From: Methylomonas subterranea
Lineage (GTDB): Bacteria > Pseudomonadota > Gammaproteobacteria > Methylococcales > Methylomonadaceae
Assembly (NCBI RefSeq): GCF_024505185.1
Contig: NZ_JANIBJ010000004.1
Span: 62,001 to 126,000 of the forward strand
DNA: 64,000 nucleotides
Reading direction: 5' to 3'
Positions within the stretch are counted from its first letter, which is position 1, and each line of letters begins with the position of its first letter. Below, in pieces: positions 55,290 to 64,000 of this stretch. The notes beneath the pieces were generated by a model. That model did no database searches and had not been told where the DNA came from. It saw only the letters and a list, made by a program, of their open reading frames with translations. The position numbers were made by a program, and so were the translations under genes.

Positions 55290-56360
55290 TTATAGCGATG
55301 CCAGCGTGATCAATTTTTTCATCAATTCGGCTTGGCTGTGCACATTCATTTTCTGCATGGTGTGCTTGATATGGTTACGCACGGTTTCCTGCGAGCGGTA
55401 GCTATGCTGGGCGATGTCCGCTATGGACGGATTTTTCATGAAGTGCAGGGCGCAGATGGCTTCGCAGCGGGACAGATTGTGCAGGCGCATCAGCCGTTCC
55501 ATGGCCGGGTTCTTGTCTTTTTCATGGGTAAACGACAGGATGAAGCCGTCTATATGACACTCCCATTGATACAGGTTTTTTAACGCGGCCAGGGGAATCA
55601 GGGAAATTTGGCAGGACTGGCATTGGTTATGGATGGAACGGCTTTCCTGGTTATCCCGCATCAGGGATAGCAGTTTTTGTTCGATGGCCGGATTTTTCAT
55701 GCCGAAGCGGTTTTCCGTGATTTGCACGCAATCCAGTTGGCTGATGATGGCCGTATAGACTGGATCGGAAAACAGAATGTTAAGCCCCTGATCGACGATG
55801 ATATAGCCGTCGAAATGATCGCCGAGATGATGCAGCAATTGAGTGTTGATCTTATGGCGTTGTTCCTTATGCATGGCATCCTGCAATTTCGGTAGGGTAT
55901 TTTCCAATAAGCGGCTGATATGTTGTTGTTCGATGTCGGTAAATGCGGTGTCGCGACCGAGCAGCAGGCTGAGCGCATGGTTTTGCCCGCATGTCAAGGC
56001 GACGCCGAAGCGAAAGGTTTGTTGCTCGGGCGATGGCAAAGCGCCTTTGTGCTCGCCCGGGAGTTCGTTTATCAGGTTTTGATTGCAGAATATCCGCCGA
56101 GGATTTTGGCAGATGTAGCGGTTGAAATGGTCTTGCCGGTTGAGCCTGTCTTCGTACTGTTCCCGATATTCTTGCGGGATATGGGCGCTGAACAGAAAGC
56201 GGGTCTTGCCGAAATCGTTCAGATCGGTCACCAGCAGGGCGCCGGAGTCGCAGGACAGTTGCCGGGTCAGCTCAAGCAGAAAGCGGTTCCAGATCAGCGG
56301 ATAGCCCGGAGCGTTCGCCAGTATGGTGTGCAGGTACAGGTCGTCGGATAATTGCCTCAT
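55290..56360 (-). CDS. LuxR-type transcriptional regulator, probable regulator of the haem-oxygenase-like operon
   Basis: The 356-residue protein has a C-terminal LuxR-type helix-turn-helix (about residues 300-350, LHFMKNPSIADIAQHSYRSQETVRNHIKHTMQKMNVHSQ). The N-terminal part is sensor-like, with PAS/GAF-type segments and a Cys-rich QCQSCQISL. No receiver phospho-Asp domain is apparent, so it may sense a small molecule. It is divergent from the operon starting at 56689, and the intergenic region holds a perfect 20-bp palindrome, making it the likely regulator (inference). Confidence 0.78.
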   Translation of the reverse strand: MRQLSDDLYLHTILANAPGYPLIWNRFLLELTRQLSCDSGALLVTDLNDFGKTRFLFSAHIPQEYREQYEDRLNRQDHFNRYICQNPRRIFCNQNLINELPGEHKGALPSPEQQTFRFGVALTCGQNHALSLLLGRDTAFTDIEQQHISRLLENTLPKLQDAMHKEQRHKINTQLLHHLGDHFDGYIIVDQGLNILFSDPVYTAIISQLDCVQITENRFGMKNPAIEQKLLSLMRDNQESRSIHNQCQSCQISLIPLAALKNLYQWECHIDGFILSFTHEKDKNPAMERLMRLHNLSRCEAICALHFMKNPSIADIAQHSYRSQETVRNHIKHTMQKMNVHSQAELMKKLITLASL

Positions 56361-56688: not shown

Positions 56689-59628
56689 ATGAAAACAACA
56701 ATAAAGGTGCCGGTGCTTTTTTTAATGTTGGGGTTTATGGCAAACGTTTGCCAAGCCGAAGCCGTTTCCACCGCGGAAAGACTCAAGGCCGACAAAGCCT
56801 GCGCGGCAATGGTGGCCAAGGGCTTCCGGCCGATTGCCCAGCAGCAGAACGAACGTTTTCTCGGTAAGGTCAGCGAAACCACCGCTGAATGTCGCGGCGG
56901 CAAAAAAGCCTTGGCCGGCCGCAGCGTGGTCTGGGTGGATTGGCCCAATTACTGGGGTACGGGCGATGCCGAAAGCAAGGCGGGAGGCTGGGAGTCCATC
57001 ACCAAGTTGGGTAAACACCTGAATCCCAACGGTAGGGGCGTGGACGGTGCCTTGATGGATCTGGAATATCAGCGCATGGAGTTGCTGCGCTTTAACCTCT
57101 ACGACAATAAAACCTACGAAACCTATATCAAGGGTATCGGGACAACTCCAGGCCCCATCGTCAAAGTTTGGGGCGAGATGCGTTTGCCGCCCAATCACGC
57201 GCAATACGACCAAGTCACCGGCAAGGACGGTACTCAGGTATGTAACGGCGATTTGATCCGTCACCGCACCATAGATGGCATTTGCAACGACATTTTCAAT
57301 CCGGCCATGGGCTCCGCCAATCAATTGTTCGCCCGCAATGTCAGCTTCGACTCCACCTTTCCGGATTTGGGCGCCAACGAATTGGTTCGTAACCGCCACG
57401 GTGACCGCTTGAGTCTGTTGAAGCCGGACCCGCAAGTCATCTCCAGGAAATTGTTTACCCGTGCTCAGTCCAAGCCGGAGGCCTGCAACCAGGGCCAGGG
57501 CTTGCCGGGCAATGCCAAAAATGCAGAGTGCGATTATAAAAAAGCACCTTTTTTCAATGTGTTGGCGGCCTATTGGATACAGTTCATGACCCACGACTGG
57601 TTTTATCACCTGCGCGAAGGTCAAAATAGCGCAGCCAGAATGCCGGTCGGTTGCGCCAGCCAATTGGTGAATAATCAGGAACAGCCCTTGAGCGCCGAAC
57701 AGGCCGCCAAACTGGGTTGCCGGCCGAACGATAAAGTGGACGTGGCCTTGATTGCGCAAAAGGAACCGGCCCCTACCTTCGAGCATGAGGGCAACACCTA
57801 TTTGTCCCGCGCCCATCGCACCACCGAAAACACCGTCACCGCTTGGTGGGACGCCTCGCAGATCTATGGTTTCGATGAACTCTCGCAAAAACGCGTCAAG
57901 CGCGATCCGCAAGATCCGGCCAAATTATGGATGGTGCCGCGCGGTAATCATGGCGGGGCCGGCGATAAACAAGGCTATCTGCCCTTGTTCAACAGCTGCG
58001 AAAATGCCGGCGCCGACTGTGTGCCCGATCCCATCAATCCGGCCTGGAAGGGCCAGGAAGCCGCCGGCTTCGCGGATAACTGGACGGTGGGCATGAGTTT
58101 TTACCACAATCTGTTCACGCGCGAACACAACGCCTTTGTGGATGCCTTCCGCGCCAAGGCGGCGGTCAACCCGGATTTGGACTCGGGCCTGCGCAATCCG
58201 GACAAGCCCGAACAAGTGATCACCTATAAAAAAGTCAGCGCCGAGGAGTTGTATCAGGCGGCTCGACTGGTAGTGGCGGCCGAAATCGCCAAAATTCATA
58301 CCATAGAATGGACCACTCAGTTGTTGTACGGCGAACCCTTGTATCTGGGCATGAACGCCAACTGGAACGGCTTGTTGATGAAGGACGACCCGGTTTCCAA
58401 GGCCCTGAAAAAAGTATTGGACAGGTTGGTGGTGAACAAACTGGCCAAATCCGAGCGGGAAACCAAGGCTAACCAGTTTTATTCGGTATTCGCCTCCGGA
58501 GCCGGCATATTCGGCCTGGGCAGTCATCGCTACAAAGACCATCCGACATTTCTGGGTAAATTGGTCGACAAAAAGGATATATGGGATATCCGCAATCCCG
58601 AGCATCTGAACGGCGGCGTCAACCACTTCGGCTCGCCTTTCAATTTTCCGGAAGAATTTCCCACCGTATATCGCCTGCATCCGCTGATACCCGATTTGCT
58701 GGAATACAGGGAACTGGGCGCTCCGGACGCCATTGCCCATAAAGTGCCGGTTGTCGGCACCTTCAGGGGCAAAGCCACCCAGGCCATGGCCGACGGCGGC
58801 CTGAGCAACTGGGCCTTGAGCATGGGCCGGCAGCGCCTGGGCCTGCTGACCTTGCAAAACCACGCCCAGTTTTTTCAGAATCTGGACTTGCCGCGCCTGA
58901 ATACCGCAACCAACAAAATCGATATCGCGGCGCTGGACTTGATTCGCGACCGCGAACGCGGCCTGCCTCGTTTCAACGAATTCCGCCGCCAATACGGTTT
59001 GAAGCAACTGACCGGCTTCGACGATTTCATCGACTGGCGCTTGCCCACCACCAGCGCGGAATATCTGGAACAAAAGCGCCTGACCGGATTGTTGCGCGAA
59101 GTCTACGGCCAGCATAAATGCGACGCCGGCAAGATCATAACCGCCGCCCAACTGAACGAGGACGGCACGCGCATCAACGATTGTCTGGGGCACCCGGACG
59201 GCAGCATGGTCGACAATATCGAAGACCTGGATACCGTGGTGGGCTGGCTGTCCGAGTTTACCCGGCCGCACGGTTTCGCCATTTCCGAAACCCAATTTCA
59301 CGTGTTCATTCTGAATGCCTCGCGGCGCTTGTTCAGCGACCGCTTCTTTACCTCCAGCTTCCGGCCGGAGTTTTATACCTCGCTGGGCGTGGAATGGGTC
59401 ATGAACAACGGTCCCGACGGCAAGAAAATGGAGCCCAAGCCTTCCAACGGCCACGAGGTCGAAGTGTCGCCGTTGAAAAGGATCATGCTGCGCACCATGC
59501 CCGAACTGAAAGACCAGTTGGCTGGGGTCGTCAACGTATTCGACCCTTGGGCGCGCGACAGGGGCGAGGACTATACCTTGCAATGGAAGCCTAGAGCCGA
59601 TGCGGCTGGCGACGAAAGCTTCAAGTAA
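56689..59628 (+). CDS. exported haem dioxygenase/peroxidase of the cyclooxygenase/alpha-dioxygenase type
   Basis: The 979-residue protein starts with a Sec signal peptide (MKTTIKVPVLFLMLGFMANVCQA). It belongs to the animal-haem-peroxidase superfamily. The distal haem His is His302 in FMTHDWFYH. The proximal His is His664 in VYRLHPLIPD, preceded by Tyr661, the place of the cyclooxygenase radical Tyr (Tyr-X2-His). This pattern marks COX-like or plant alpha-dioxygenase-like fatty acid oxygenases better than simple peroxidases. I infer dioxygenation of an unsaturated fatty acid; peroxidase activity is the alternative. The frame is open from 56572, but ATG 56689 has the ribosome site and signal. 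It is 33 bases upstream of a catalase-related gene. Confidence 0.8.
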   Translation: MKTTIKVPVLFLMLGFMANVCQAEAVSTAERLKADKACAAMVAKGFRPIAQQQNERFLGKVSETTAECRGGKKALAGRSVVWVDWPNYWGTGDAESKAGGWESITKLGKHLNPNGRGVDGALMDLEYQRMELLRFNLYDNKTYETYIKGIGTTPGPIVKVWGEMRLPPNHAQYDQVTGKDGTQVCNGDLIRHRTIDGICNDIFNPAMGSANQLFARNVSFDSTFPDLGANELVRNRHGDRLSLLKPDPQVISRKLFTRAQSKPEACNQGQGLPGNAKNAECDYKKAPFFNVLAAYWIQFMTHDWFYHLREGQNSAARMPVGCASQLVNNQEQPLSAEQAAKLGCRPNDKVDVALIAQKEPAPTFEHEGNTYLSRAHRTTENTVTAWWDASQIYGFDELSQKRVKRDPQDPAKLWMVPRGNHGGAGDKQGYLPLFNSCENAGADCVPDPINPAWKGQEAAGFADNWTVGMSFYHNLFTREHNAFVDAFRAKAAVNPDLDSGLRNPDKPEQVITYKKVSAEELYQAARLVVAAEIAKIHTIEWTTQLLYGEPLYLGMNANWNGLLMKDDPVSKALKKVLDRLVVNKLAKSERETKANQFYSVFASGAGIFGLGSHRYKDHPTFLGKLVDKKDIWDIRNPEHLNGGVNHFGSPFNFPEEFPTVYRLHPLIPDLLEYRELGAPDAIAHKVPVVGTFRGKATQAMADGGLSNWALSMGRQRLGLLTLQNHAQFFQNLDLPRLNTATNKIDIAALDLIRDRERGLPRFNEFRRQYGLKQLTGFDDFIDWRLPTTSAEYLEQKRLTGLLREVYGQHKCDAGKIITAAQLNEDGTRINDCLGHPDGSMVDNIEDLDTVVGWLSEFTRPHGFAISETQFHVFILNASRRLFSDRFFTSSFRPEFYTSLGVEWVMNNGPDGKKMEPKPSNGHEVEVSPLKRIMLRTMPELKDQLAGVVNVFDPWARDRGEDYTLQWKPRADAAGDESFK

Positions 59629-59661
59629 TTCAAAGACGCCATGGCAGCGGGGGATGCGATT

Positions 59662-60618
59662 ATGAATGCGGAAATGCCGATAGCCGAACTGGTGGCCGAG
59701 ATGGGGCAGCGGATTGCCGCCATTATCTCGGATGAAGCCGAAGAAGGCGTGGTGCCGCGCTTCAATCAGGCTAAAACCCTGGGTTGTCTGCGCGGGGAAT
59801 TCCGCGTGCACCAGGATGTTCCCGCCGAATTACGGCACGGTATTTTTGCCGAAGCCAAAACCTATCCGGCCATGCTGCGGTTTGCCAACGCCACTAGCAG
59901 GGACGATGCCGAAAAGGACGCGAGGGGCTTGTCCATTCGTTTGTCCGGCGCGCGCGGGCCGGTTTTGTGGGGCGAAGAGGGTTTTCAGGATTTCGTTTTA
60001 AACAGTTATCCGGCTTTGTTCGTGGCTACGCCGGAGGATTTTTTGGGCTTTATTCGGGCCCGGCAGGCCGACAGGAAGCTGTGGTTTTTTTTGAATCCGT
60101 TCAACCCGCACCTGAAATCGTTCTGGATTGCCTTTAAATCACGCCAAAAGCATTTATGCCCGTTCGACGTGCGCTTCTGGAGCACTACGCCCTACAAACT
60201 GGGCGAAGACAGCGGGCAAGTGGTGAAGTATTCCGTGATTCCCTGTTCGGATTACCAAACCACGCAAGCGGAGAATCCGGGCCGCGATCAGTTGCGGGCG
60301 GCGATGCGGGCGCATTTGCGGCGCGAGCCGGCCAAGTTTCATTTTGCCGTGCAACTGCAAACCGAGCCGGCAAGCATGCCGATTGAAGATGCTTCGGTAA
60401 TCTGGGACGAAACGCTTTCACCTTTTCAAATTGTTGCCACCATCACGATAGAAGACCAGGATTTTGCGGACGAGGACACCATGGCGGCGTGCGAACGCCG
60501 CAGTTTCAATCCCTGGCAATCCTTGGCGGCGCACGAACCCTTGGGGCGCATGAACCTGGTCCGGCGCGAGGTATACGCCCATGCCGCCGCCCTTCGCACT
60601 AGTAATAATCGGGAGTAA
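59662..60618 (+). CDS. catalase-related haem protein (allene oxide synthase / hydroperoxide lyase type)
   Basis: The 318-residue protein has the short catalase-like fold: the GCLRGEFRVHQDVPAELR segment, MLRFANATSRDDAEKDARGLSIRL, DFVLNSYPALFVATPEDFLGF, and the proximal haem Tyr in RREVY (Arg301-X3-Tyr305). The distal position, usually His in HAKG, appears as Gln36 (NQAKTLGC), which would abolish ordinary catalase activity. Relatives convert fatty acid hydroperoxides. With the COX-like protein upstream it forms a candidate oxylipin pair. ATG 59662 has a GGGGGA ribosome site; an earlier ATG lies at 59641. No signal peptide is seen. Confidence 0.78.
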   Translation: MNAEMPIAELVAEMGQRIAAIISDEAEEGVVPRFNQAKTLGCLRGEFRVHQDVPAELRHGIFAEAKTYPAMLRFANATSRDDAEKDARGLSIRLSGARGPVLWGEEGFQDFVLNSYPALFVATPEDFLGFIRARQADRKLWFFLNPFNPHLKSFWIAFKSRQKHLCPFDVRFWSTTPYKLGEDSGQVVKYSVIPCSDYQTTQAENPGRDQLRAAMRAHLRREPAKFHFAVQLQTEPASMPIEDASVIWDETLSPFQIVATITIEDQDFADEDTMAACERRSFNPWQSLAAHEPLGRMNLVRREVYAHAAALRTSNNRE

Positions 60619-60623
60619 GCACC

Positions 60624-61073
60624 ATGAACGATACCGTCAACAGTTGGTTGAGCAAATCGCGGGAAGAGCTGGATGAAATTTATTGCAATGCCGAGCCGGG
60701 CAATATTCCGAGCGGCGACACCCAAGGCACCGCGATTCTGGCCGGCTCCGTATTCGCCAAGTTGGCGGCTTTTCTGGCCGGGGTTTACGCTTGGCAGGGC
60801 AAACGGTTCGATTTGTTTTGCGCCGGCGGCCAGGCTGGGGTACTGGTAAATAAAATCACTTTTTTCAGTCTGACCTTCATCGTCGCCAAGGTTTATAAGG
60901 ACAAAAGCTGGCTGGACCAAAAAGACACCATCGTCATCGATTATTCGACCACCTCGTTTTTCGCCAAGGCCATCCGCGACGAAATCCGCGAGATTGAACC
61001 CGGGGTTTATCTGGGCAAGGTCTGGTGGGGTAAAAAACGCATTCTGGATTTTGCCCTGACCCGCAAGGATTAA
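60624..61073 (+). CDS. protein of unknown function in the haem-oxygenase operon
   Basis: The 149-residue protein has a hydrophobic stretch (AGSVFAKLAAFLAGVYAW) near residues 40-58, a PGNIPSGDTQGTAIL segment before it, and the later SWLDQKDTIVIDYSTTSFFAKAIRDEIREIEPGVYLGKVWWGKKR. I do not recognise a characterised family. It begins 6 bases after the catalase-related gene and ends 13 before the next, so it is part of the same operon. It may bind or modify the lipid product, but no motif proves this. Confidence 0.6.
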   Translation: MNDTVNSWLSKSREELDEIYCNAEPGNIPSGDTQGTAILAGSVFAKLAAFLAGVYAWQGKRFDLFCAGGQAGVLVNKITFFSLTFIVAKVYKDKSWLDQKDTIVIDYSTTSFFAKAIRDEIREIEPGVYLGKVWWGKKRILDFALTRKD

Positions 61074-61085
61074 GCAGGCTAGTCG

Positions 61086-62387
61086 ATGACGCCTCAATCC
61101 ACCTTCATGATAGTAGCGCCGGTCCGCGGCGGAGAGTTGCAGAAGCTGCGCGCGTTGTTGGCCGGTATGAACAAATCAGTCGGGCTGGCCGACCCGGACA
61201 ACGAACTGCTGCCTTTCGGCGCTTTCGAGCGTCTGCACATGGCACGCTTTGTCATCGTGGAGTCGATTACCGGAGACGAGATCAAGGCTTATGGTAAGCA
61301 GCCGCGGCCGTGGCAGCCGGTCTTGGCGTTTCTGGGGGATATAGATGGCGACAGACTGGCTTTTTTTGCCGAATTGGCTCGCAAGGCCGAAGCCGGTTTG
61401 CAACAAATCTTTGCCCATTGCGAAGGCTTTACCAAGGCATTCGATCTGCTCAGCTGGATGCTGGCGCATAACATCGAGCCGGCCGCCAATTACGTCAACT
61501 GGCTGGGACGCACGGTCAAACAGGTGCGCGAGGAAGCCGCGCTGCATCGCTGTCTGACTGAATACCTGCAACAGATCGTCGTGGAATCCGGGCGGGATAA
61601 CCCCAGGGTTTTACGGCAAAAACTGTTATCTCATGTGGAGATGCAAAAGCACGCTGGCCTCCTCAAACTGAGTCCGGAAGAACCCACGCCCTTGGCCTGG
61701 AGGATCCGGAACGGGTTGCACAAGATCGGGATACCGTTGGTTTTATTGCTGCTATCGCCGGTATTCCTGATCTTGGCGCCTTTTTTTGCCCTGCGCCTGC
61801 GCCTGCTGGAACGTTCCGACCCCGAACTGTTCATCCGTCCGAGCCGGGAACATATCGAAGCCCTGGCCTATTTGGAGGATAGGGATGTCAGCAATCAATT
61901 CAATGTGTTCGGCGACATCAAGCCGGGCTTGTTCCGCCTGCTGTTGTTCAAACTGTTGATGTTGCTGACGGACTACGTGGCCAGACACATCTACAAACGG
62001 GGGTTTTTGACCCGGATCAGATCCATACATTTCGCCCGCTGGGTGTTCATGGATAACAATCGGCGGGCTTTTTTCGCCAGCAATTACGACGGCAGCCATG
62101 AAAGCTATATGGACGATTTCATCAACAAGGCCGGTTGGGGACTGAATCTGGCCTTCGGCAACGCGGTAGGCTATCCCACCACCCGATGGCTGGTCAAACA
62201 GGGCGCGGAACGGGAACAGCAATTCAAATACACCCAAAGGCGGCACCAGTTGCCGTCCCAGGTTTGGTACAAGGCCTATCCGGATTTGACGGCCGTCGAT
62301 CTGGCGCGCAACAGCCGGATACGCAAGGGCGTGGAAATACGTCAGGCCGATGATCAGGCCATACGCGATTGGCTCGGCGAAATCTAG
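61086..62387 (+). CDS. membrane-associated protein of unknown function in the haem-oxygenase operon
   Basis: The 433-residue protein has one strong hydrophobic region at about 210-240 (IGIPLVLLLLSPVFLILAPFFAL), probably a membrane hairpin. Its C-terminal domain has the distinctive stretch IHFARWVFMDNNRRAFFASNYDGSHESYMDDFINKAGWGLNLAFGNAVGYP. I recognise no catalytic motif. A similar stretch is, from memory, found in proteins encoded next to DyP-type peroxidases, as here. It ends 9 bases before that gene's start. It could act at the membrane on fatty acyl substrates; this is conjecture. Confidence 0.6.
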   Translation: MTPQSTFMIVAPVRGGELQKLRALLAGMNKSVGLADPDNELLPFGAFERLHMARFVIVESITGDEIKAYGKQPRPWQPVLAFLGDIDGDRLAFFAELARKAEAGLQQIFAHCEGFTKAFDLLSWMLAHNIEPAANYVNWLGRTVKQVREEAALHRCLTEYLQQIVVESGRDNPRVLRQKLLSHVEMQKHAGLLKLSPEEPTPLAWRIRNGLHKIGIPLVLLLLSPVFLILAPFFALRLRLLERSDPELFIRPSREHIEALAYLEDRDVSNQFNVFGDIKPGLFRLLLFKLLMLLTDYVARHIYKRGFLTRIRSIHFARWVFMDNNRRAFFASNYDGSHESYMDDFINKAGWGLNLAFGNAVGYPTTRWLVKQGAEREQQFKYTQRRHQLPSQVWYKAYPDLTAVDLARNSRIRKGVEIRQADDQAIRDWLGEI

Positions 62388-62395
62388 GCGGGTAC

Positions 62396-63925
62396 ATGAC
62401 AACGACATATTCAAGCGATTTTCCCTTTGACGACCTGCAAGGACTGTTGCGCTTTGGACACAGGCATTTAAAAGACAGCTGTTTTTTATTGTTGCGGGTG
62501 GCCGATGCCAAGGCCGCCAAGCAGTGGCTGGCGGATGCGCCGGTTTCGTCGGCCATCCAGAACGGTTCCCGTCCCAAAACGGCCCTGCAGATAGCCTTTT
62601 CCGTGGCGGGTTTACGCGCTTTAGGCTTGCGGGAATCGGTCATCGGGGATTTTTCCGACGAATTCATCAGCGGCATGGCCGGCCACGAAAGCCGCTCCCG
62701 CCGTCTTGGCGACGTGGACGGCAATTCACCGGAATATTGGGCGTGGGGCGGCGGCGAGCAACAAACTCCGCACGTACTGCTGCTGTTGTATGCCGAAGCC
62801 GGCAAAATCGCCCCGTGGCGCAAAAAGGCCCAGGGCAAGCCGTTTGCCGAGGCGTTTGAGTTGTTGGCCGAATTGCCGACCGACGATCTCGGTGCGATAG
62901 AACCCTTCGGCTTTGTCGACGGCATCAGCCAGCCGGAACTGGATTGGGCGGGCACTCAGGCAATAGACAGCCACGGCCGAGACGGTTTCTCCAATCTGCT
63001 GGCGGTAGGCGAGGTGGTGTTGGGATATCGCAACGAATACGGCCAATATACGGTCAGGCCGTTGATCGATCCCATGCACGACCCCGGCGCGGCCCTGTTG
63101 CCGGCGGCGGAAGACCGGCCCGGGTTGAAGGATTTTGCCCGTAACGGCAGTTATCTGGTGTTGCGGCAACTGGGTCAGGACGTGCCGGGATTCTGGCAAT
63201 TTATAGACAAAGCCAGCGGCGGCGATGCGACACAGCGTGAACAACTGGCCGCCGCCATGGTGGGTCGGCAGCGCGACGGCAGGCCTTTGCTGCCGCCGGC
63301 CGCTGCTGAAATTCCCGGCATTCCCGCCGACGACTCGCTGAACAGTTTTAATTATTTATCCGATCCGGCCGGCATGCGCTGCCCCATCGGCGCCCATGTG
63401 CGCCGGGCCAATCCGCGTAGCGGCGATATGCCGTCGGCTTCCGGCTGTATTTTCAGCCGGTTGTTGAAAATACTGGGCTTCGGGCTTAACCGTCACGACC
63501 AGGACTTGATTGCCTCTACGCGCTTTCACCGTTTGCTGCGCCGGGGTCGCCCTTATGGGCCGCTGTTGACGCCGGAGCAGGCGGTCAAGGCCGATGCACC
63601 GGCGGCCGAACGCGGCTTGCAATTCATTTGCCTGGTGGCCAATATCTCCCGGCAGTTTGAATTCGTACAGAACGCCTGGATGGTGAACAGCAAATTCGCC
63701 GGTCTGCAACAAGAACGCGATCCGCTGTTGGCGCATCGCCAGCCACTGAACGACGGCACGCCGACCGACCAATTCCATCGCCCCGATCCAGCCGGGCCGG
63801 TGCAAACCGTTGCGCATTTGCCGCAATTTATCAGCGTACGCGGCGGTGCTTACTTTTTCATGCCGGGGCTGAGCGCCATTCGTTATCTTGCCGCCTTACC
63901 CACTCAGGGAGACCAGCCGTCATGA
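62396..63925 (+). CDS. DyP-type peroxidase
   Basis: The protein of about 509 residues has the DyP ferredoxin-like fold signatures: FGFVDGISQP (the GxxDG distal Asp, about residue 175), and the proximal haem His in RCPIGAHVRRANPR (about residue 334). The length is longer than the classic EfeB/DyP-B forms. DyP enzymes oxidise dyes and other compounds with peroxide. Here it may consume hydroperoxide products of the upstream genes. No Tat signal is apparent, so it is probably cytoplasmic. The start is ATG 62396; the frame extends to 62369. It overlaps the next start by ATGA. Confidence 0.9.
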   Translation: MTTTYSSDFPFDDLQGLLRFGHRHLKDSCFLLLRVADAKAAKQWLADAPVSSAIQNGSRPKTALQIAFSVAGLRALGLRESVIGDFSDEFISGMAGHESRSRRLGDVDGNSPEYWAWGGGEQQTPHVLLLLYAEAGKIAPWRKKAQGKPFAEAFELLAELPTDDLGAIEPFGFVDGISQPELDWAGTQAIDSHGRDGFSNLLAVGEVVLGYRNEYGQYTVRPLIDPMHDPGAALLPAAEDRPGLKDFARNGSYLVLRQLGQDVPGFWQFIDKASGGDATQREQLAAAMVGRQRDGRPLLPPAAAEIPGIPADDSLNSFNYLSDPAGMRCPIGAHVRRANPRSGDMPSASGCIFSRLLKILGFGLNRHDQDLIASTRFHRLLRRGRPYGPLLTPEQAVKADAPAAERGLQFICLVANISRQFEFVQNAWMVNSKFAGLQQERDPLLAHRQPLNDGTPTDQFHRPDPAGPVQTVAHLPQFISVRGGAYFFMPGLSAIRYLAALPTQGDQPS

Positions 63926-64000
63926 CCGTCAAAAACTGCATACTCATGGCCATTCACCGGTTTTTGCTGCAACTGTTGTATCTGGAGCGCCGTTTGGAAC
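63922..64000 (+). CDS. next operon gene, 3' end outside the window (unidentified)
   Basis: An ATG overlapping the DyP stop (ATGA) opens a frame MTVKNCILMAIHRFLLQLL that continues past base 64000. Only 26 codons are visible, with a hydrophobic start that could be a membrane helix. The family cannot be named from this. Confidence 0.6.
   Translation, partial: MTVKNCILMAIHRFLLQLLYLERRLE

Follow-up and report, generated by a model that had tools for sequence, protein, structure and literature searches.

A conserved gene cluster of Methylomonas subterranea that probably oxygenates fatty acids and processes the products

Few bacterial oxylipin systems have been described, chiefly those of Pseudomonas aeruginosa (diols) and some cyanobacteria, and the natural roles of DyP peroxidases are mostly open. 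In Nostoc, a COX-superfamily 10S-dioxygenase (10S-DOX) is described as paired with a catalase-related hydroperoxide lyase (PMC13049297), an arrangement that the pairing of dioxygenase and catalase-related protein (CRP) reported here resembles. Corals offer a further example in their AOS- and HPL-lipoxygenase fusions (PMC5617202), in which, as here, a fatty-acid dioxygenase is coupled to, or fused with, a catalase-related domain; the partner is a lipoxygenase in corals but of the alpha-dioxygenase (alpha-DOX) type in our case. For rice alpha-DOX, PMC8720084 assigns carboxylate and C2 positioning to H311, T316 and R559, catalysis to Y379 and haem binding to H157 and H382. Finally, PMC4496055 places two P. 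aeruginosa enzymes, a fatty-acid 10S-dioxygenase and a diol synthase, in the RoxA-like group.

The window, i.e., the whole 64,000-nucleotide stretch of M. subterranea DNA that was analysed, contains near its end a gene cluster that had been recognised in an earlier note as five genes plus the beginning of a sixth, all on the forward strand, with gaps of 33, 5, 12 and 8 bases and an ATGA overlap. We confirm this cluster and its layout, including the overlap at 63922-63925 (Table 1). The cluster is larger than described there: the sixth gene, which had been missed, extends past the window end and encodes a second catalase-related protein (CRP2). Our analysis indicates that these six genes probably add oxygen to fatty acids and then process the products. 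An NCBIfam search gave no match for genes 1-4 (genes 3 and 4 at E 0.01), and scans for promoters (3 Sigma-70-like sites versus 5.1 in shuffles) and terminators (19 versus 13.9 in shuffles, sd 4.6) were uninformative. No description of the cluster was encountered in the literature found, most subscription papers being outside the search.

Table 1. Features of the cluster and its surroundings (window positions).
Feature	Position	Strand	Basis
Divergent LuxR-type regulator, upstream of gene 1	55290..56360	-	PF00196, E 1.7e-6
Gene 1, alpha-dioxygenase-type animal haem peroxidase, 979 aa, predicted exported	56689..59628	+	PF03098, E 3.6e-63
Predicted signal peptide of gene 1, ~23 residues	56689..56757	+	Hydrophobic N-terminus, AxA-like site
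Distal haem His302 (rice H157)	57592..57594	+	Alignment, 81/81
His537 and Thr542 (rice H311 and T316), carboxylate binding and C2 positioning	58297..58314	+	Alignment, 81/81
Catalytic Tyr661 and proximal His664 (rice Y379 and H382)	58669..58680	+	Alignment, 81/81
Arg880 (rice R559), carboxylate salt bridge	59326..59328	+	Alignment, 81/81
Gene 2, CRP1, catalase-related haem protein	59662..60618 (alternative start 59641)	+	PF00199, E 1e-7
Gene 3, U149, 149 aa, predicted lipocalin/FABP-like beta-barrel	60624..61073	+	Model and Foldseek
Gene 4, U433, 433 aa, predicted tandem ABM-like alpha+beta domains with internal hydrophobic helical hairpin	61086..62387	+	Model
U433 hydrophobic helix pair, residues 203-243	61692..61814	+	Model helices 203-222 and 224-243, sequence
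Gene 5, DyP-type peroxidase, 509 aa	62396..63925	+	Solved-protein matches
Gene 6, CRP2, 399 aa	63922..64000, continuing beyond the window (L004:9923-11122)	+	ATGA overlap, ORF

Judged by its sequence, gene 1 is closest to plant alpha-dioxygenase. Among solved proteins it aligns best with 4kvj, the fatty acid alpha-oxidase of rice (E 3.2e-56), followed by the alpha-DOX 4hhr (E 1.3e-50). It has the superfamily, haem ligands, catalytic Tyr and equivalents of H311, T316 and R559 in common with alpha-dioxygenases from plants and cyanobacteria (rice 4kvj; CalDOX and LepDOX, PMC8720084) but is longer (979 aa versus 621-652 for the solved alpha-DOX chains), is predicted to be exported, with a lipobox often present in its relatives, and belongs to an operon with CRPs, U149, U433 and a DyP. 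COX and fungal DOX have YxW or YxF around their catalytic Tyr (PMC13049297), a motif carried by none of our 81 gene 1 sequences: all have YRLH, and rice alpha-DOX has YRMH in the alignment with gene 1. The COX/alpha-dioxygenase haem site previously proposed from the sequence is borne out by the alignment of His302, Tyr661 and His664 with their rice equivalents. The carboxylate and C2 residues were compared between rice alpha-DOX and these 81 sequences (the window's and those of 80 relatives, the best 80 of 423), and the six residues that serve haem binding, catalysis and carboxylate binding in the rice enzyme are each invariant in 81 of 81; they are also kept in two distant plasmid relatives. 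The occurrence of His537, Thr542 and Arg880 throughout this set predicts 2-hydroperoxy fatty acids as the product of gene 1. Bacterial manganese-oxidising peroxidases belong to the same superfamily, and close relatives of gene 1 are found in Candidatus Manganitrophus and its family (L025 and L028). However, these two loci do not carry the other cluster genes and the alpha-DOX residues are invariant there too, which makes it highly improbable that gene 1 serves metal oxidation as a manganese-oxidising haem peroxidase of the animal type.

The second product had been described as catalase-related, and its Pfam match as well as that to coral allene oxide synthase (1u5u; E 4.8e-6) agree with this. 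Gene 6 by itself has no Pfam catalase match, and its label as catalase-related therefore rests on its similarity to gene 2 (35% identity over 299 columns, E 5e-48); its matches to KwaB (Pfam, E 0.16) and to armadillo and kinase entries of the PDB were taken as noise. A proximal haem Tyr with an upstream Arg occurs in all 52 CRP sequences. The distal Thr66-His67 of the catalase-related AOS and HPL, including the coral enzymes, is missing at its usual place in CRP1 and CRP2. At the distal position of the catalase motif, fixed in the alignment by Arg at -3 and Lys at +2, catalase and the coral enzymes have His, whereas 26 of 27 CRP1 sequences (that of the window among them) have Gln and 24 of 25 CRP2 sequences Asn. 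CRP2 has a pair 3-4 residues past the usual place, i.e., Thr-His in 21 of 25 and Thr-Tyr in 4 of 25. These residue counts, and the locus counts (26 for CRP1, 25 for CRP2), include the "CRP1" of L083 and the "CRP2" of L092, which were rejected as cluster members: they keep the catalase His and lie elsewhere relative to gene 1. With Gln or Asn at the distal His position, lyase activity cannot be read across to the CRPs.

This bears on the parallel drawn earlier with Nostoc, in which gene 1 would act on linoleate or oleate as a 10S-type dioxygenase, with CRP1 as a hydroperoxide lyase making short aldehydes. The pairing of a COX-superfamily oxygenase with a CRP fits such a parallel, and PMC13049297 reports that the Nostoc 10S-DOX works with its CRP lyase and accepts oleate. 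However, compared with the Nostoc pair, which we liken by description only, gene 1 has alpha-DOX as its best match and the alpha-DOX carboxylate residues in 81 of 81 sequences, the CRPs are without the distal His and four extra genes are present. We consider this parallel, and with it the lyase reading of CRP1, unlikely.

The assignment of gene 5 as a DyP peroxidase can be retained: by sequence, its link to the family is clear from its matches to the solved 8re3 ("Peroxidase, putative"; E 1.3e-37) and, from E 4.5e-29, to named DyPs, despite a score under the NCBIfam DyP cut-off (TIGR01413; 76.4 versus 100.5 bits) and Pfam DyP_N and Dyp_perox_C matches that are also under their cut-offs. Asp175, His334 and Arg382 are kept in 30 of 30 sequences; Asp and Arg of this motif are distal and His proximal, as in DyP-type peroxidases such as 7anv and 4au9. 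Apart from its sub-cut-off score, the cluster DyP differs from known DyPs in being partnered with, and sometimes fused to, U433, a P450 or CRP2.

The two proteins previously listed as uncharacterised, U149 and U433, indeed lack a Pfam match even at E 10. For U149 the structure model is of moderate confidence (pLDDT 72); its best Foldseek match is 4mve (function not known; E 5.8e-5), followed mostly by FABP, CRABP and bile-acid-binding proteins at E of at least 0.03, and a sequence profile gave no match in the PDB. A fatty-acid-binding-like barrel is a tentative prediction, of moderate confidence. The U433 model (pLDDT 86) matches 9lmn (E 5.3e-5) and 9ltx (E 1.2e-4) in Foldseek, its sequence profile only one PDB entry at chance level (E 0.34). 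The helix pair in this model is likely a membrane hairpin, and U433 is predicted to be a membrane-anchored alpha+beta-barrel partner of DyP; the idea that it is a sequence paralogue of DyP was dropped, as it has no sequence similarity to gene 5. Matches of more than 500 bits to U149 and to U433 have an identical distribution, covering 13 of 301 genomes. Since U433 resembles polyketide ABM/SchA-like domains and a GMC oxidoreductase and P450 are among the neighbours, the haem oxidases might tailor a non-fatty-acid specialised metabolite (e.g., polyketide-like, terpenoid or aromatic). We regard this as rather less probable even than the Nostoc parallel: the neighbours scanned, for which annotation is partial, include no scaffold synthase, gene 1 keeps the fatty-acid carboxylate residues, and the RoxA-like proteins that act as replacements in related clusters (see below) group with known fatty-acid oxidisers.

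Gene neighbourhoods were surveyed in the best 80 of 423 gene 1 loci, and the counts therefore lean to close relatives. The synteny suggested as a check is present: the gene set is syntenic in Gamma- and Betaproteobacteria, its arrangement being far above chance, and occurs in methanotrophs, nitrifiers and marine or halophilic gammaproteobacteria. It is also found in three other phyla, only in metagenome-assembled genomes (six module-bearing loci outside Pseudomonadota among the best 80 of 423, all metagenome-assembled according to their record titles). Counting genes on one strand within 500 bp in the best 80 of 423 loci, the order COX to CRP1 holds in 25 of the 26 loci with both, CRP1 to U149 in 23 of 25, U433 to DyP in 26 of 26 and DyP to CRP2 in 21 of 24 (in the remaining three, CRP2 precedes U433).

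The cluster is modular, with parts that are interchangeable or fused among related bacteria. Within the same best 80 of 423 loci, a P450 takes the place of CRP1 (5 versus 26 loci, never both) and a tandem di-haem RoxA-like pair replaces U433-DyP-CRP2 (9 versus 27, never both); among the 36 loci with U149, 8 have the RoxA-like pair and 27 U433/DyP, again never both (hypergeometric 3e-7, ignoring kinship). The swapped-in P450s were considered as possible CYP74 members: those of L029 and L026 have a CAGKD/CAGKS haem loop reminiscent of CYP74 but keep the I-helix Asp-Thr pair, which is absent from those of L040, L060 and L072. Fusions are found of DyP with CRP2 (five loci of Halomonas and kin), of P450, U433 and DyP (three plasmid proteins, the P450 match of one being under the Pfam cut-off), of U433 with DyP (one plasmid protein) and of U149 with a RoxA-like protein (a single ORF at L040). 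The dioxygenase/CRP pairing pointed out earlier is likewise conserved, and CRP and alpha-DOX form a single protein on Rhizobium and Phyllobacterium plasmids. Conversely, 43 of the best 80 of 423 gene 1 loci have no CRP1 (L083 apart), P450, U149, U433/DyP or RoxA pair; only 11 of these have less than 2 kb of downstream DNA, so gene 1 can work without the other modules. Four genomes carry U149-U433-DyP-CRP2 without gene 1, from which it follows that this module can also work alone. Phospholipase families occur in the fetched flanks (Tle1-like in 6 and patatin in 5 of the best 80 of 423 loci). The original interpretation as a lipid-oxidation pathway is partly supported, by the conserved dioxygenase/CRP pair, the synteny and the phospholipases near some copies, though not in its Nostoc parallel.

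The RoxA-like replacements provide a link to the oleate-diol synthase PA2077/PA2078 of P. aeruginosa (PMC4496055), a likeness that runs via the RoxA-like family and not via direct sequence comparison; the window's cluster itself lacks the pair. Those of the swapped-in genes that were scanned are RoxA-like. In the window's own genome, RoxA-like Pfam matches sit on other contigs, two above the Pfam cut-off and none above that of NF040606. In 14 control genomes, PF03098 was found in none, PF21419 in one (E. coli) and NF040606 in one (Thermus composti), both below cut-off. These swaps also bear on the idea that gene 1, the CRPs and the DyP defend against oxidative stress by removing H2O2 and lipid peroxides as peroxidase- or catalase-like enzymes. 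Genes 1, 2 and 5 do belong to haem peroxidase or catalase superfamilies and the catalytic residues of the DyP are intact, but such specific P450 and RoxA-like swaps are ill-suited to scavenging, catalase's distal His is absent from the CRPs, and gene 1 retains carboxylate residues for which a plain peroxidase would have no use. We judge stress defence improbable, about on a par with the Nostoc parallel.

It had been considered puzzling that the dioxygenase appears exported and the other proteins cytoplasmic. Using simple hydrophobicity and lipobox scripts, not SignalP, we found a hydrophobic N-terminus in 72 of 81 and a lipobox in 37 of 81 gene 1 family members. The puzzle is partly eased by relatives: for CRP1 in the COX-CRP1 arrangement, 10 of 25 have a lipobox near the N-terminus when ORFs are read upstream and 6 further have a hydrophobic N-terminus, judged by eye, while the RoxA-like proteins of related clusters combine an N-terminal hydrophobic stretch with CxxCH haem motifs. 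It persists for the window itself, where genes 2-6 gave no export signal in the hydrophobicity scan, the closest being gene 6 (1.6 versus a threshold of 1.8).

Taken together, we favour, with a probability of roughly two in three, an operon for fatty-acid oxygenation that begins outside the cytoplasm and whose products are processed by haem enzymes. The exported gene 1 product would use a Tyr661 radical to take a C2 hydrogen off a free fatty acid held at its carboxylate by His537 and Arg880, yielding a 2-hydroperoxy fatty acid. CRP1, with its Tyr-ligated haem and without catalase's distal His, or a P450 would then convert the hydroperoxide or a derived aldehyde, a step coupled to gene 1 by gene order, swap and fusion. 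U149 may carry substrate or product. U433 would anchor DyP, and CRP2 with it, at the inner membrane, a partnership evident from the fusions, and DyP and CRP2 would perform the last oxidation. The pathway would most probably end in a modified aldehyde or an oxylipin that serves in signalling, in the membrane or in defence. More tentatively, and with rather less than even odds in our view, the clusters could represent a widespread modular bacterial oxylipin pathway with a periplasmic alpha-dioxygenase, a CRP/P450 step, a lipid-binding carrier and a swappable terminal oxidation unit (U433-DyP-CRP2 at the membrane or a tandem di-haem pair), repeatedly rebuilt by swap and fusion, in which U433-DyP is a new membrane-anchored DyP complex acting with a CRP or P450.

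All this suggests that the cluster is a bacterial counterpart of plant and animal lipid-signal pathways, the P450/catalase and DyP/RoxA swaps paralleling the differing solutions of plants, corals and fungi. A conserved alpha-dioxygenase cluster would open bacterial alpha-oxidation and its products to experiment, give DyP peroxidases a new set of partners and provide a role for two conserved families without Pfam or NCBIfam model (U149 and U433). The divergent LuxR-type gene is a possible regulator of the operon; such a gene neighbours gene 1 in 6 of the best 80 of 423 loci, all of them titled Methylomonas, Methylomicrobium or Methylococcaceae.

The earlier note had described a candidate oxylipin operon in which five full genes are followed by the beginning of another, and their coordinates, gaps and ATGA overlap were all confirmed; a genome-neighborhood search likewise bore out the expected co-occurrence, with the cluster genes recurring in order beside part of the best 80 of 423 relatives of gene 1. 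The products are, in order, an alpha-dioxygenase-type enzyme, a catalase-related protein (CRP1), proteins of 149 and 433 aa without Pfam or NCBIfam match (U149 and U433), a DyP peroxidase and a second catalase-related protein (CRP2). Gene 6, read past the window end, encodes 399 aa with 35% identity to gene 2 (299 columns, E = 5e-48), and gave no catalase match when searched alone against Pfam. The strand switches 3' of gene 6, and the surrounding 4.4 Mb genome contains a single PF03098 gene.

Features adjoining the operon and related loci (L004 is the window's own operon extended past the window end; other L-numbers are fetched loci)
Feature	Location	Orientation	Basis or context
LuxR-type regulator	upstream of operon	divergent	Pfam
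Gene after operon, PEP-CTERM-like C-terminus	L004:11231-11887	opposite strand	by eye
Gene after operon, PEP-CTERM-like C-terminus	L004:11947-12789	opposite strand	by eye
Tle1-like phospholipase	L022:18524-20221		directly 3' of CRP2
Tle1-like phospholipase	L024:13891-15525		directly 3' of CRP2
Tle1-like phospholipase	L108:15068-16615		directly 3' of CRP2
195-aa membrane-like and uncharacterised 454-aa proteins	L120:8279-10281		conjugative Rhizobium plasmid, after CRP-alpha-DOX fusion and RoxA-like gene; no Pfam match for either

Gene 1 matches Pfam An_peroxidase (E = 3.6e-63), and its best sequence relatives in the PDB are plant alpha-dioxygenases (3.2e-56 to 1.3e-50), followed by lactoperoxidase (0.0014). 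Counted along the PDB alignment, where chain numbers are rice numbers + 3, its His302, His537, Thr542, Tyr661, His664 and Arg880 correspond to rice H157, H311, T316, Y379, H382 and R559, the functions of which are described in an excerpt of PMC8720084; the 4kvl chain has Phe at the alignment place of Tyr661. These six residues are invariant in all 81 aligned sequences, i.e., the window and 80 relatives (closest named ones among the best 80 of 423: Methylomonas sp. WSC-6, 92%, and M. lenta, 82%), and are shared by distant proteins encoded on plasmids of Rhizobium phaseoli and Streptomyces. The tyrosine motif is YRLH, not the YxW that an excerpt of PMC13049297 gives for COX and most fungal DOX. 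Simple scripts found a hydrophobic N-terminus in 72 of the 81 sequences, some of the other nine being cut by contig ends, and a lipobox in 37; predicted export is a trait of the gene 1 family.

Gene 2 matches PF00199 (E = 1e-7), with coral allene oxide synthase as best PDB match (4.8e-6). The proximal Tyr and its two Arg neighbors are retained in 52/52 CRP1 and CRP2 sequences. At the place of the distal His, which Arg at -3 and Lys at +2 mark, 26/27 CRP1 have Gln and 24/25 CRP2 have Asn; the two exceptions (L083 and L092) are probably not cluster members. Because of this Gln or Asn, CRP1 and CRP2 do not have, at its usual place, the distal Thr-His of catalase-related AOS/HPL, the earlier note having likened genes 1 and 2 to a Nostoc dioxygenase and lyase. 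Slightly past the distal place, CRP2 carries a Thr-His (21/25) or Thr-Tyr (4/25) pair. One idea is that the Asn or Gln amide might serve as in CYP74 enzymes. A fusion protein of R. phaseoli retains His at the distal place of its CRP domain and, therefore, CRP chemistry may differ between clusters.

The aligned sets comprised 32 U149 and 24 U433 sequences. The predicted model of U149 (pLDDT 72) is best matched in Foldseek by 4mve (E = 5.8e-5, TM 0.66), a structure without known function; most of the hits ranked below it, all with weak E-values, are cellular retinoic-acid-, fatty-acid- and bile-acid-binding proteins. That of U433 (pLDDT 86) has a hydrophobic helix pair flanked by two ABM-like alpha+beta units, its best matches being 9lmn (5.3e-5) and 9ltx (1.2e-4). 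DyPs are likewise alpha+beta barrels; no DyP is among the 50 listed matches of the U433 model, and U433 was rejected as a sequence relative of gene 5, to which it has no sequence similarity. Asp175, His334 and Arg382 of DyP are retained in 30/30 sequences, four of them from a more distant U433-DyP pair.

The 423 relatives of gene 1 came from one scan of genome contigs and the best 80 were kept, so that counts favor close relatives. In these 80 loci tblastn within the fetched flanks found CRP1 (26), P450 (5), U149 (36), U433 (27), DyP (26), CRP2 (25), a tandem pair of di-haem RoxA-like proteins (9), GMC (7), long di-haem cytochrome (6), Tle1-like phospholipase (6) and patatin (5). Same-strand neighbors less than 500 bp apart are COX-CRP1 (25/26), CRP1-U149 (23/25), P450-U149 (4/4), U433-DyP (26/26), DyP-CRP2 (21/24) and RoxA1-RoxA2 (9/9). 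Among the best 80 of 423, CRP1, U149 and DyP occur together in 18 loci (15 Gammaproteobacteria, 1 Campylobacterota, 2 Thermodesulfobacteriota), P450, U149 and DyP in one Desulfuromonadia and one Gemmatimonadota, and U149 and DyP without CRP1 or P450 in seven (six Betaproteobacteria), while gene 1 is bare in 43, in 11 of which less than 2 kb lies downstream. U149, U433 or the RoxA pair is present in 37 loci, 31 of which belong to Pseudomonadota; the six from other phyla are all titled MAG and, therefore, spread beyond Pseudomonadota could partly be misbinning. The Tle1-like phospholipase is possibly a source of free fatty acids.

Some parts replace each other: no locus among the best 80 of 423 combines P450 with CRP1, or the RoxA-like pair with U433/DyP. 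Among 36 U149 loci, eight have the RoxA pair, 27 U433/DyP, none both and one, on a short contig (L094), neither; for independent loci this distribution would have a chance of 3e-7, but the loci are not independent. The gene 1 tree (FastTree, 83 rows, 23 weak branches among 80 inner ones) requires a minimum of 9 changes for CRP1/P450/fused/none and of 13 for DyP/Rox/none, "none" including cut contigs. In 301 genomes of the window's order, gene 1 occurs in 12 and U149 in 13, with an overlap of nine; the genomes in which U433 scores more than 500 bits are precisely the 13 with U149. The four genomes with the module and without gene 1 all have an adjoining long di-haem cytochrome, and two a GMC. 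More distant U433 (257-307 bits) occurs in 18 other genomes, and weak partial matches alone in nine. Four of these 18 were inspected (L104-L107): DyP adjoins U433 in all, as does a GST-P450 gene in three (two assigned by Pfam, the third by alignment).

Fusions provide the strongest evidence for joint action of the parts. Catalase-related and alpha-DOX-type domains share one annotated CDS in R. phaseoli (942 aa, domain scan), where a RoxA-like cytochrome gene follows, and in Phyllobacterium (949 aa, two matches inside one CDS), where the third gene upstream encodes a patatin phospholipase. P450-U433-DyP fusions occur on plasmids of Pararhizobium, Novosphingobium (pNL2; P450 match 20.2 bits, under Pfam's 22.8) and Sulfitobacter, and a U433-DyP fusion in Rhizobium sophoriradicis. 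DyP-CRP2 forms a single ORF of 875-897 aa in L064, L068, L073, L076 and L096, and U149 with a RoxA-like protein one of 683 aa in L040. Plasmid pMPPM03 of Methylorubrum populi (L121) carries a row of ferredoxin, FAD oxidoreductase, P450, catalase family protein, 203-aa protein and DyP, adjoined by a transposase.

The RoxA-like replacements tie the cluster to fatty-acid oxygenation, because PA2077 and PA2078 are grouped with RoxA in an excerpt of PMC4496055; the likeness runs via the RoxA-like family, not direct sequence comparison. Both L077 proteins match PF21419, and RoxA1 scores 190.9 bits against the NCBIfam NF040606 cut-off of 150; these two served as the tblastn queries that located the remaining RoxA-like loci.

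Residues, gene order, swaps, fusions and the gene 1 export signal form the observed part of a model in which gene 1 would oxygenate at C2, CRP1 or P450 would process its product, U149 might act as carrier, and DyP and CRP2 would perform the final oxidation at the inner membrane, yielding an end product with a possible signaling, membrane or defense role. Its weakest joint is that gene 1 is exported whereas genes 2-6 of the window have no export signal. In COX-CRP1 relatives, CRP1 has a lipobox in 10/25 and, by eye, a hydrophobic N-terminus in six more; most of the window's closest relatives have neither, and since these signals vary, step 2 may take place at different sites in different lineages. 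Each enzyme superfamily in the cluster is already known; the literature searched gave no description of the cluster, its exchangeable parts or the U433-DyP partnership, and there is a fair chance that the system is more than a variation on a known kind.

In Nitrosomonas (L046, L053, L056, L062), GMC oxidoreductase and long di-haem cytochrome genes lie between gene 1 and U149-U433-DyP-CRP2, and CRP1 is absent. Upstream of gene 1 in Nitrospira-type loci (L034, L036-L039, L043) lies, as judged by eye, a putative trypsin-type protease gene, accompanied in five of the six by a small conserved gene.
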